From Pseudomonadota bacterium (GTDB lineage: Bacteria > Pseudomonadota > Alphaproteobacteria > Sphingomonadales > Sphingomonadaceae): 64,000 nt of DNA. Of this stretch, positions 59,271 through 64,000 are shown piece by piece. A program made the translations under genes and the position numbers. Every line of letters starts with the position of its first letter. Position 1 is the stretch's first letter. The notes below the pieces were generated by a model that was given only the letters and a program-made list of their open reading frames with translations, had not been told where the DNA came from and ran no database searches. The stretch covers positions 1 to 64,000 of the forward strand of contig JAJZTH010000017.1 in NCBI GenBank assembly GCA_021849075.1. The letters run 5' to 3'.

Positions 59271-61547
59271 TCAGCTCAATTCGATGTTTCTCTCCTGCGC
59301 CCACCGGGTCAGCGGGCCGCGAATGTCGGACGTTCCACTGTCCAGCAGTTCGCGCATCAAAGCCTGCAATTGCGCCGCATCGATCGCGCGGATCATCGCC
59401 TTGACCGGGCCGACCGACGCGGGCGTGATCGACAGGCGACGGATGCCCAGGCCGATCAGCGCCATCGCCTCCAGCGTGCGCCCGCCCATTTCGCCGCACA
59501 CGCCCACCGGCACCTGATGCGCCTGACAGGCGCGCGCCACCCGGTCCAGGAACCGCAGCACCGCGATGCTCAGCCAGTCATAGCGTTCCGCCAGCTTGGG
59601 ATGGGCGCGGTCGGCGGCGAACAGGAACTGGGTCAGGTCATTGGTGCCGATCGACAGGAAATCGACGCGCGGCAGCAATATGTCCAGCACCTCGGCCAGC
59701 GCCGGCACTTCCAGCATCGCGCCATATTTGACCGCGATCGGCATCTTCTTCTTCTGCGACTGCAACCATTCGCGCTGATGCTCCACCAGCGCGCGGGCCT
59801 GTTCATATTCCCATGGCTCCGACACCATCGGGAACATGATGTTCAGTACCTTGCCCGCGCCGGCCTCCAGCAGAGCGCGCGCCTGCGCCTTCATCAACCC
59901 GTCGCGGTCCAGCGCCAGCCGTAGCGCGCGCCAGCCCATCGCCGGATTATCCTCCAGCTCCTCGTCCCCGTCGCGCGTCATATAGGGCAGCGCCTTGTCG
60001 CCGCCGATGTCGACCGTGCGGAAAATGACGGGCCGGTCGCCCGCCGCATCCAGCACATCCTTGTACAGACGCTGCTGTTTTTCCCGCTGCGGCAGGGTGG
60101 CCGACACCAGAAACTGAAATTCCGTGCGGAACAGGCCAATGCCGTCCGCGCCGACAATGTCCAGCGCCTGCGCATCTTCCCGCAGACCGGCATTGACCAT
60201 CAGCTCCACCCGCTGCCCGTCGGTCGTCACCGACGGCAGATCGCGCATCGCGGCGAATTCGGCGCGGCGCTTTTGCGTCACATGCAGCTTGCTTTCAAAC
60301 GCCTCGTCCATGTCGGCGCTCGGCCGGATCAGCAGCGAATTGGCGCCGACGTCCATCAGGATCAGGTCGCCTTCGTTCAACTGGTGGCGCACATCGCGCA
60401 CCCGGCCCAGCACCGGCACGCCCATGGCGCGTGCGACGATGGTGACATGGGCGGTCAGCGACCCTTCCTCCAGGATCACGCCCTTCAGCCGCCGCCGGTC
60501 ATATTCCAGCAGTTCCGCCGGCCCCAGATTGCGCGCGATCAGGATGGCGTCACCGCGCAGTCCCAGTTGCGCCGCCGTGCCCAGCTGCCCCGACACGATG
60601 CGGAGCAGCCGGTTGGCCATATCCTCCAGATCGTGCATCCGGTCCTGCAACAACGGATCGTCAATCTGGCGCATGCGCATCCGGGTGCGCTGCTGCACCC
60701 GTTCGATCGCCGCTTCCGCAGTCAGGCCGCTGTCGATCGCCTCGTTGATCCGCCGGATCCAGCCTTCGTCATAGGCGAACATCTTGTAGGTTTCGAGCAC
60801 CTCCTGATGCTCGCCCTCGGTGCCGAACTCGGCCGCTCCGGTCATCCGGTCGATCTGCTCGCGCATCTTGGCAAAGGCGGAAATGACCCGCGCCCGCTCC
60901 GCCTCCGTATCCTCCGCGACGGTATGTTCGACATGGATGCGCGGCTGGTGGAACACCGCATGGCCGCGCGCCATGCCCATCACCAGTTGCAAGCCATGCA
61001 GCATCGTCGTGCCGGTGTCGGTCACGCGCGCGTCCGCCGGGCCATCGTCAGCCAGTTCGGCATGGGCGATCAGTTCGGACAGCACCATGGCGACCGTCTG
61101 CAACGCCTCGATCTCGACCTCTTCATATTTGCGCGGCTCGACATGCTGCACGCACAGCACGCCGATGGCGCGCTCGCGCCGCACGATCGGCACGCCGGCA
61201 AAGCTGTGGAACAATTCTTCGCCGGTTTCGGGGCGATAGCTATAGTCGGGGTGCGACGCCGCCTCGTCCAGGTTCAGCGTCTCGACATTGGTGGCGATCA
61301 GGCCGACCAGACCCTCGCCCATCGCCATGCGGGTGACATGCACCGCTTCCTGCTTCAGGCCCCGCGTCGCAAACAGCTCCAGCACGCCTTCGCGCACCAG
61401 ATAGATGGAGCAGACCTCGCTCGACAGCGACTCGCCGATAATCTCCACAACCTTGTTCAGCTTGGCCTGCGCGCTGGTACGCGCGGCCATCACTTCCTGA
61501 AGGCGGACAAGGATCTGGCGGGCGGCGGCGGCGGGCGAACTGGGCAT
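59271..61547 (-). CDS. ptsP: PTS-Ntr enzyme I (phosphoenolpyruvate-protein phosphotransferase)
   Basis: A 758-residue protein with an N-terminal GAF domain (about 20-165, CSIYLVREGVLELFATRG) and the enzyme I domains: EGSLTAHVTIVARAMGVPVLG with the phospho-His (about 366), FRTEFQFLVS, GGDKALPYM and FLSIGTNDLTQFLFAADR with the PEP-binding region. It starts the nitrogen-related phosphorelay (PtsP-NPr-EIIA). It is divergent from the first aminotransferase gene, sharing a 161 bp upstream region, and rodZ follows 76 bp downstream. Confidence 0.96.
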   Translation of the reverse strand: MPSSPAAAARQILVRLQEVMAARTSAQAKLNKVVEIIGESLSSEVCSIYLVREGVLELFATRGLKQEAVHVTRMAMGEGLVGLIATNVETLNLDEAASHPDYSYRPETGEELFHSFAGVPIVRRERAIGVLCVQHVEPRKYEEVEIEALQTVAMVLSELIAHAELADDGPADARVTDTGTTMLHGLQLVMGMARGHAVFHQPRIHVEHTVAEDTEAERARVISAFAKMREQIDRMTGAAEFGTEGEHQEVLETYKMFAYDEGWIRRINEAIDSGLTAEAAIERVQQRTRMRMRQIDDPLLQDRMHDLEDMANRLLRIVSGQLGTAAQLGLRGDAILIARNLGPAELLEYDRRRLKGVILEEGSLTAHVTIVARAMGVPVLGRVRDVRHQLNEGDLILMDVGANSLLIRPSADMDEAFESKLHVTQKRRAEFAAMRDLPSVTTDGQRVELMVNAGLREDAQALDIVGADGIGLFRTEFQFLVSATLPQREKQQRLYKDVLDAAGDRPVIFRTVDIGGDKALPYMTRDGDEELEDNPAMGWRALRLALDRDGLMKAQARALLEAGAGKVLNIMFPMVSEPWEYEQARALVEHQREWLQSQKKKMPIAVKYGAMLEVPALAEVLDILLPRVDFLSIGTNDLTQFLFAADRAHPKLAERYDWLSIAVLRFLDRVARACQAHQVPVGVCGEMGGRTLEAMALIGLGIRRLSITPASVGPVKAMIRAIDAAQLQALMRELLDSGTSDIRGPLTRWAQERNIELS

Positions 61548-61708: not shown

Positions 61709-62866
61709 ATGGCCACGCAACTCGAACCCGCATTTGAACAGGATCTCATCGACCGCGGCTATTCGCGCCGCCAGCTGGCGAAGGCCGCCGCGCTGCTGGG
61801 CGCCGGCGCCGCCGCCATCCACGTCACCGGGGCCGGCGCGCAGCAGGCGGCCAAGGCGGTTGTCGGCGCGGTGCGCATCGGCGCCAATGAATGCTGGACC
61901 GGTCCCTTTCCCGTCGCTGCCGACGCCGCCTTCAAACTGGTGAAGGAAGGCAATCGCTACGAACCCGACAATGAACATCAAAAGCTGTTCGACGCCGTCG
62001 CCTCGGTCGAGGGCATTCCGGCCGATCGCGTCGTCGCCTGGCCCGGCTCTTCCGATCCCTTGAGCCGCGTCGCCGTCGCCTATGCATCGCCCACGCGCGG
62101 CATCGTCACCGCCGATCCGACCTATGAAGCCATCTGGCGCACCGGCGACTGGCTGGGCGCCAAGGTGACGAAGGTGCCCCTGACCAAGGATTATGCGCAC
62201 GACGTCAAGGCGATGCTGGCGGCCGATCCCAATGCTGGCGTCTACTATATCTGCTCGCCCAACAACCCGACCGGCACCGTCACGCCGATCACCGACATTG
62301 AATGGCTGGCCAACAACAAGCCCAAGGACGCGATCCTGGTCGTGGACGAAGCCTATATCCACTGGGTCGACGGTCCCAACGCCGCCAAACTCGCCGCCAC
62401 GCGCGACGATGTTCTGATCCTGCGCACCTTCTCCAAGTTGTTCGGCATGGCCGGCATGCGCCTTGGCCTCACCTTCGCCAGCCCCGTGCTCATGGAAAAG
62501 ATGATGCGCTATGACGGCGGACAGGTGACGGGCATGCTGCCGATGACCGCCGTCGCCTGCGGCACCGCCTCCGTCACCGAAGCCGGCCTCATCAAGGCGC
62601 GCCGCGCGGAAATGAACGCCGCCCGCGAAAAGGCCGTCAGCCATCTCAAAGCCAAGGGGATCAAGGTCGTCCCCGGCAGCCAGGCGAACATGTTCATGGT
62701 CGACTGGGGCAAGCCGGCCAAGGGCATGATGGAGGCGCTGATGACGCAGAATGTGCAGATCGGCCGCAGCTGGCCGATCTGGCCCAACATCTCGCGCATC
62801 TCGGTAGGATCGATGGAAGAGATGGAAAAGTTCAACGCCGCAATCGACAAGGTGTGGAAGGCGTAA
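61709..62866 (+). CDS. Tat-exported histidinol-phosphate aminotransferase-like PLP enzyme, copy 1
   Basis: A 385-residue protein. The N-terminus holds a twin-arginine signal (GYSRRQLAKAAALLGAGAAA, about 17-36) followed by AVVGAVRIGANECWTGPFPV. The rest is a fold type I aminotransferase: PNNPTGT (residues near the cofactor), VVDEAYIHWV, and RTFSKLFGMAGMRLGLTFA with the PLP lysine, as in HisC. GGGAGA before ATG 61709 supports the start; the track's upstream extension overlaps the ptsP promoter region. It is exported folded with its cofactor, an unusual location. Substrate unknown. Confidence 0.87.
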   Translation: MATQLEPAFEQDLIDRGYSRRQLAKAAALLGAGAAAIHVTGAGAQQAAKAVVGAVRIGANECWTGPFPVAADAAFKLVKEGNRYEPDNEHQKLFDAVASVEGIPADRVVAWPGSSDPLSRVAVAYASPTRGIVTADPTYEAIWRTGDWLGAKVTKVPLTKDYAHDVKAMLAADPNAGVYYICSPNNPTGTVTPITDIEWLANNKPKDAILVVDEAYIHWVDGPNAAKLAATRDDVLILRTFSKLFGMAGMRLGLTFASPVLMEKMMRYDGGQVTGMLPMTAVACGTASVTEAGLIKARRAEMNAAREKAVSHLKAKGIKVVPGSQANMFMVDWGKPAKGMMEALMTQNVQIGRSWPIWPNISRISVGSMEEMEKFNAAIDKVWKA

Positions 62867-62874
62867 CTTATTTG

Positions 62875-62902
62875 CGGGATGCGCCGAAAGAGGCGCATCC
62901 CG
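62875..62902 (+). terminator. Hairpin after the first PLP enzyme gene
   Basis: CGGGATGCGCC (62875-62885) pairs perfectly with GGCGCATCCCG (62892-62902). It lies nine bases after the stop but lacks a T-tract. Confidence 0.55.
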
Positions 62903-62937
62903 TGACGGTGCCGGCCCGCAGGAAAATTGCAGAAAAG

Positions 62938-62978
62938 AAAAGGCGGCGCATTGCGGATATGCGCCGCCTTTTCGTTTC
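62938..62978 (+). terminator. Rho-independent terminator between the two PLP enzyme genes
   Basis: AAGGCGGCGCA (62940-62950) pairs with TGCGCCGCCTT (62960-62970), followed by TTCGTTTCTC. Its presence suggests that the two paralogous genes are mostly separate transcripts. Confidence 0.75.
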
Positions 62979-63020
62979 TCCCCACGTAACTGAAGAGCAT
63001 TCAGACGAGGGACAGACGAC

Positions 63021-64000
63021 ATGACCATGATGCTGACGAAGGATGCCAAGGAAGATCTGATCGAGCGCGGCTATTCGCGCCGCCAGCTGGGCGAGGTCGC
63101 CGCGCTGCTGGGCGCTGGCGTCGCCGCCAGCTCGCTGCTGGGCGGCAGCGCCATGGCGCAGCAGCAGGCGGCCCGCGCGGTCAAGGGCGCGGTGCGCATC
63201 GGCGCCAATGAATGCTGGACCGGCCCCTTCCCCTCGGGCGTTCAGGCCGCTGCCGAAGCCGCCTCGTTCGGCAACTGGTACGATCCGGACAATTACAAGG
63301 CGGACCTGATCAAGACCGTCGCCACGGTCGAAGGTCTGCCCGAAGAGCAGGTGATGCCCTGGCCCGGCTCGGGCGGCCCGCTGGTCAGCATCGTCGCAGC
63401 CTATTGCTCGCCGACCAAGGGCCTCGTCACGGCCGACCCGACCTTCGAATCCGCCTGGCGCACCGCCGATTACATGAAGGCCCCCATTGCCAAAGCCCCC
63501 CAGGCGATCGGCAAGGGCCATGATGTGAAGGCGATGCTCGCCGCCAATCCGAACGCGGGTCTCTATTATATCTGCACCCCCAACAACCCGACCGGCACGA
63601 TCACCCCGCTCGCCGACATCAAGTGGCTGCTGGACAACAAGCCGGCCGACGCCATGCTGCTGGTGGACGAAGCCTATATCCACTTCTCCGAAAGCCCCAG
63701 CGCCGCCACGCTGATCGGCAACCGCAAGGACATCATCGTCATGCGGACCTTCTCGAAGCTGTTCGGCATGGCGGGCGTCCGCCTTGGCCTCACCTTCGCC
63801 GATCCCGAAGTGCAGAAGCGCATTTCGCTGTTCGGCCCGGCCGCAGGCGGCCTCGCCATCACCGCCATGCATTGCGGCAATGCGGTCTATACCGAAGCCG
63901 CCCTGATCAAGGCGCGCCGGAATGAAATGATCGCCAACCGCGAAGAAACCATCGCATGGCTGACCAAGAAGGGGCTGGAAGTGCAGCCCGGCAGCCAGGC
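63021..64000 (+). CDS. Tat-exported histidinol-phosphate aminotransferase-like PLP enzyme, copy 2 (partial, cut by window end)
   Basis: This gene is missing from the ORF track because it has no stop inside the window. 326 codons are visible. They start MTMMLTKDAKEDLIERGYSR with the Tat signal (SRRQLGEVAALLGAGVAAS), then GAVRIGANECWTGPFPSG, PNNPTGT, LVDEAYIHF and RTFSKLFGMAGVRLGLTFAD with the PLP lysine. It shares long identical blocks with copy 1 and is a tandem duplicate that has diverged in the middle. It has its own leader with a hairpin terminator upstream. Substrate unknown. Confidence 0.86.
   Translation, partial: MTMMLTKDAKEDLIERGYSRRQLGEVAALLGAGVAASSLLGGSAMAQQQAARAVKGAVRIGANECWTGPFPSGVQAAAEAASFGNWYDPDNYKADLIKTVATVEGLPEEQVMPWPGSGGPLVSIVAAYCSPTKGLVTADPTFESAWRTADYMKAPIAKAPQAIGKGHDVKAMLAANPNAGLYYICTPNNPTGTITPLADIKWLLDNKPADAMLLVDEAYIHFSESPSAATLIGNRKDIIVMRTFSKLFGMAGVRLGLTFADPEVQKRISLFGPAAGGLAITAMHCGNAVYTEAALIKARRNEMIANREETIAWLTKKGLEVQPGSQ

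Follow-up and report, generated by a model that had tools for sequence, protein, structure and literature searches.

Two aminotransferases with twin-arginine motifs at their N termini stand in tandem at the end of the DNA analyzed here (the window, 64,000 nucleotides, G000:C53:1-64000). The draft genome to which it belongs measures 3.67 Mb and, among named organisms, is closest to Sphingobium species. The tandem pair raises the question of what a duplicated transaminase would do outside the cytoplasm, and with which partner. Both open reading frames lie on the + strand where an earlier note on this DNA had placed them. Copy A (61709..62866, 385 aa) begins with the ATG at 61709 and reaches its stop at 62866. 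Copy B (63021..64000, 388 aa) begins with the ATG at 63021, 154 bases farther on, and runs off the end of the window; its stop is reached at contig position 64187 (stop included), 187 bases past that end. The segments SRRQLAK and SRRQLGE, the PLP lysine motif RTFSKLFGMAG in both copies, and the common block GAVRIGANECWTGPFP were all found as described in that note. Each SRR segment is followed by at least 22 uncharged residues and an AxA sequence. The further copies for which it had advised looking past position 64000 did not turn up; when the contig was read on, convergent AHSA1, PF06983, glyoxalase-like, and DUF1428 genes followed copy B. Upstream and divergent from the pair lies a gene for a PEP-utilizing enzyme with a GAF domain (ptsP type, 59271..61547, - strand), which is a conserved neighbor throughout the genus, although we do not regard it as contributing to what the pair does.

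Both copies scored above the curated cut-off (444 bits) of the NCBIfam model PRK09105 (NF006580, "pyridoxal phosphate-dependent aminotransferase"), copy A with 517 and copy B with 500 bits. The matches ran from residues 15/16 to the C terminus, such that the model extends into the RR segment. Scores with the hisC model (TIGR01141) were 201 and 176 bits (cut-off 276.55), and those with the PtaA equivalog model (NF051461) were 325 and 308 bits (cut-off 500). A Pseudomonas-type PtaA protein passed both the PRK09105 (502 bits) and the PtaA model (685 bits), showing that PRK09105 is the family containing PtaA. A PF00155 search of the window genome returned 16 aminotransferase-like proteins, and the genome encodes a separate hisC, which scored 286.6 bits, above the cut-off. 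The possibility that the copies are ordinary HisC enzymes, which the earlier note had named as fatal to its reading, is thus contradicted by scores well below the hisC cut-off and by a cytosolic hisC elsewhere in the genome. Judged by these models, the pair consists of cousins of the PtaA/PRK09105 kind and not of HisC.

The assignment to HisC-like aminotransferases of fold type I was borne out by the PF00155 family, by the active site residues, and by a structural model. The Schiff-base lysine and the PLP contacts expected for this fold are present. As evident from the alignment, Lys243, Asp213, Tyr216, and Arg251 of copy A (K243, D213, Y216, and R251) correspond to K214, D184, Y187, and R222 of Escherichia coli HisC, and R363 aligned with R335. 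All five residues of copy A were invariant across 27 orthologues. The AlphaFold model of copy A showed a fold-type-I domain (mean pLDDT 76.9, pTM 0.81) with low confidence in the signal region, and its top PDB matches were HisC-like (3ly1; TM 0.77-0.85).

We then asked whether the N termini have the features of Tat substrates, using a rule that called for RR within the first 35 residues and, behind it, 13 or more consecutive uncharged residues. Both copies satisfied this rule. The predicted signal of copy A (MATQLEPAFEQDLIDRGYSRRQLAKAAALLGAGAAAIHVTGAGAQ, 61709..61843, + strand) carries RR at residues 20-21 and an AxA-type site ahead of QQ, and that of copy B (MTMMLTKDAKEDLIERGYSRRQLGEVAALLGAGVAASSLLGGSAMAQ, 63021..63161, + strand) carries RR at the same residues and AMA ahead of QQ. 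The genome encodes TatC, so that an RR near the N terminus, an uncharged stretch, an AxA site, and the Tat machinery were all present. Among the 12 best aminotransferase loci of the genome, several of which have rough starts apart from the pair, only A and B conformed to the rule. R20 and R21 of copy A were invariant in the 27 orthologues. The RR pair is kept in relatives across several families of the phylum, in very different flanking sequences (TRRDWLKGTSS, SRRRFLQLAGAG, and, in PtaA, SRRSLLAIGAALP), and RR plus an uncharged stretch occurs in PRK09105 members as well as in more distant exported groups. It was absent from all 11 cytosolic HisC-type relatives compared. With RR retained amid otherwise divergent signals, and with no such signal in any recognized cytosolic HisC relative, Tat export of A and B is well supported by sequence comparison, in agreement with the earlier note. 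The n-region speaks against export, being acidic and, for a signal, long. A and B are probably exported already folded, with their PLP cofactor, beyond the inner membrane. A periplasmic aminotransferase is less unusual than had been suggested, since a published case, Pseudomonas PtaA, falls within PRK09105.

The duplication, with both copies retained, proved to be real. A and B share 57% identity over 390 positions. The idea that the second copy had diverged in its N-terminal half was not upheld, because identity was 60.1% for residues 49-216 and 58.7% from residue 217 to the end, an even spread of divergence over the protein; N-terminal divergence as a sign of specialization was therefore discarded. 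Between the orthologues of A and those of B, 36 positions are fixed for different residues; 18 of them lie at residues 85-173 and 10 in a loop region, 267-288. In a tree of 95 sequences, a comparison that the earlier note had proposed, the HisC sequences fell on one side of a branch (support 99*) and were separated from the exported forms. PRK09105 including PtaA received 100*, the A-type clade 98*, and the B-type clade 99*. The A and B clades each contain Sphingobium and other genera; thus, the duplication predates the genus, and a recent tandem duplication was ruled out. Beside ptsP, most genus members carry A followed by B, about ten carry B alone, and most others carry neither. As B stands alone in about ten members, A is the more dispensable copy, and by gene content B is the core copy, often found without A, and A an additional paralogue. 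Copy A probably differs from B in substrate preference. A hairpin resembling an intrinsic terminator (62937..62973; stem AAAAGGCGGCGCA/TGCGCCGCCTTTT, about -22 kcal/mol, followed by a T run) lies between the two genes, as had been noted. It is not conserved along with the pair: of the 23 intergenic regions that were scanned, just 5 had a strong stem and T run. Separate regulation of A and B through it is a guess.

A candidate partner emerged from the neighborhoods of relatives. A TauE/SafE (TSUP) permease gene adjoins the transaminase gene in 11 sphingomonad loci, co-directionally or divergently and in several gene orders, and seven of these loci also contain a TonB receptor. The association was equally evident from the permease side. 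A close homologue (E <= 1e-90) was found in 13 of 151 Sphingomonadaceae genomes, and 11 of these 13 loci adjoin a Tat-signal transaminase, which belongs to either of two distant types; Tat signals are also visible in the second, G019 type. In two members of the genus (G881 and G902), a permease of this kind and a transaminase are immediate neighbors at a site away from ptsP. In the window genome, the permease (PF01925, 73% identity, G000:C45:7292-8128) is unlinked to the pair, as is the TonB receptor, and the neighbors of the permease are genes for Lrp and alanine dehydrogenase. The Lrp/AsnC regulator, ald, and the permease gene lie together there (L170:5200-8125), and ald adjoins tauE in 29 of 30 genus loci examined. 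An Lrp/AsnC-type regulator also stands beside the permease in three transaminase loci (L154, L157, and L161), which hints at amino-acid-responsive control. Two of these loci (L154 and L161) are flanked by a gene resembling that of spore photoproduct lyase, with hisD farther out.

Within the genus, permease and transaminase were found to come and go together. Among 81 genus genomes (cut-offs E <= 1e-80 for the permease and E <= 1e-100 for an A/B-type transaminase), 57 had both and 22 had neither, leaving one with the transaminase only (G776) and one with the permease only (G641). G776 is also missing ald, the usual neighbor of the permease, so this region is probably missing from the assembly, and in G641 the permease adjoins the other type of exported transaminase. 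When placed on a ptsP tree, the absences amounted to three or more losses of both genes together within the A/B-bearing clade (in G870, in G802, and in the clade G895/G685/G892/G927). All four independent contrasts agreed, four being too few for a sign test to reach 0.05 (p = 0.125). All six genomes of the A/B-bearing clade that lack permease and transaminase have kept ald; thus, the loss is specific to permease plus transaminase, and ald, not being a specific partner, does not point to the substrate. A pyruvate/alanine shuttle via permease and ald was rejected because of this retention and because ald lies apart from the permease in several other genomes. The gene neighborhoods and the joint losses together suggest that the transaminase works with a specific inner-membrane permease.

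From these results we favor, as reasonably probable, a pair of periplasmic transaminases of the PtaA/PRK09105 kind that work with the TauE/SafE permease. A and B would each take up PLP and fold in the cytoplasm, be exported by Tat, and be cut after the AxA site. Their periplasmic reaction would be the transfer of an amino group between a 2-oxo acid and an amino compound. The permease would carry the 2-oxo acid partner, bringing the product in or sending the amino acceptor out, and would thereby supply or remove the keto acid on the outer side of the inner membrane. Where a TonB-dependent receptor shares the locus, as in many relatives, it would import the amino substrate through the outer membrane. 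A cargo of this kind would be in keeping with a report that the TSUP family carries organic acids besides sulfur compounds and that Neisseria meningitidis depends on a TSUP protein to use alpha-ketobutyrate (PMC12671195). Against this reading count the diversity of TSUP substrates (sulfonates, sulfite, and organic acids) and, in the window genome, the missing linkage of permease and TonB receptor to the pair. More tentatively, and with somewhat less confidence than doubt, we propose a general sphingomonad module for periplasmic transamination, in which a Tat-exported transaminase, a dedicated TSUP permease for the 2-oxo acid, and in some cases a TonB receptor would remove or exchange amino groups outside the cytoplasm. 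Such a module would have been assembled at least twice, from two distant transaminase types and the same permease subfamily.

Other explanations were weighed against this partnership. The Pfam family and the HisC-like PDB matches would also fit extra cytosolic HisC or aromatic aminotransferases whose SRR stretch is a fortuitous N-terminal extension. We give this hardly any credence, because the genome has its own hisC elsewhere, A and B fall below the hisC cut-off, RR with a hydrophobic stretch is family-wide and absent from cytosolic HisC relatives, and the tree sets HisC apart from the exported forms. Membership of the permease in PF01925 could be taken in the strict TauE/SafE sense, with a sulfur compound as cargo and transaminases whose substrate would be a sulfonated amino acid, for example cysteate. 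This is very unlikely, as no sulfonate genes occurred among the neighbors scanned and the family also transports organic acids (PMC12671195).

The pair might instead tailor a secreted or periplasmic metabolite, a siderophore or peptide, as PtaA does, with the permease as a mere pathway neighbor. PtaA, likewise in PRK09105, acts on a siderophore (PMC6206403), and the TonB receptors beside relatives weakly resemble siderophore receptor models. We nevertheless consider this rather unlikely: a scan of recurrent neighbors by family revealed no recurrent biosynthetic cluster beside about 30 sphingomonad relatives, the PtaA equivalog cut-off was missed, and the joint loss with an inner-membrane permease would need a separate reason. 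It is also quite improbable that the pair are O2-dependent PLP oxidases or decarboxylases, as PvdN, or lyases, which would need no amino acceptor and whose imine or enamine product would be hydrolyzed by water or an exported RidA. Fold-type-I PLP oxidases are known, including the periplasmic PvdN (PMC7497351), and three genus members carry a third, PtaA-branch copy with a Rid-family gene behind it, whose product has an apparent Sec signal. RidA, however, adjoins neither A/B nor the copies linked to TauE, the ordinary residues of HisC-type transaminases are all retained, and published work treats PtaA as a normal transaminase (PMC6206403). O2-dependent chemistry is possible above all for the PtaA-branch third copies in some genus members.

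The favored partnership of exported transaminase and permease was compared with characterized systems. PtaA resembles the pair in having a Tat signal before a HisC-like fold-type-I domain, in belonging to PRK09105, and in being usually encoded outside a large biosynthetic cluster. The pair differs in that it is only about 40% identical to PtaA, scores below the equivalog cut-off, stands in tandem, and co-occurs with the TauE permease; the activity that defines PtaA is the conversion of pyoverdine glutamate into alpha-ketoglutarate. The description of PRK09105 itself states no function and no permease or TonB linkage. HisC shares the fold, the PLP lysine, and the arginines, but is cytosolic and makes histidine. 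PvdN of Pseudomonas, likened to the pair by description, is also a Tat-exported periplasmic fold-type-I PLP enzyme, but it is described as decarboxylating, as using O2, and as serving pyoverdine maturation (PMC6206403, PMC7497351). The meningococcal permease KbuT, which serves alpha-ketobutyrate use, is in the same broad TauE/SafE/TSUP family as the proposed partner but is linked to the methylcitrate cycle and not to an exported transaminase.

Exported HisC-like transaminases are thus already known from PtaA, and we make only a modest claim for the pair, as it falls in a named family with one characterized member. What is new is an exported transaminase that is duplicated, lies outside the PtaA equivalog, and is tied to a permease by linkage of the permease subfamily in other Sphingomonadaceae and by joint loss within the genus. 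A literature search found no paper treating TauE, an exported transaminase, and a TonB receptor jointly. PtaA is exported by Tat with PLP and also occurs in species without pyoverdine; its PLP is said to be "somehow regenerated" in the periplasm, and its role in bacteria without pyoverdine was left open (PMC6206403). A permease linked to and lost with an exported transaminase would provide a concrete partner for both questions, in environmental bacteria whose genes are routinely deleted, and hints at how exported transaminases can run outside the cytoplasm.

Neighborhoods of other relatives were varied. Xanthomonad-type relatives (DNA ligase, zipA, and smc) and Pseudomonas-type PtaA (cytochrome oxidase genes) had neighbors that gave no functional clue. 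In the window's genus, the third exported transaminase, that of the PtaA branch, is flanked by a TonB receptor and the Rid-family protein (L148, L149, and L150), which by its apparent Sec signal is possibly a periplasmic RidA. In genus g42 of family f8, a different family from that of the window genome but within its taxonomic order, arrays of about four to eight tandem aminotransferases were seen in four genomes (L137, G061:C38; L138, G052:C15; L139, G021:C1; L140, G085:C62), beside genes for a UvrD-type helicase/nuclease, thioredoxin, and IPP transferase. Nearly all of the array proteins have a clear Tat signal of the TRRDWLKG type, and they form a clade of their own outside PRK09105 (support 100*).
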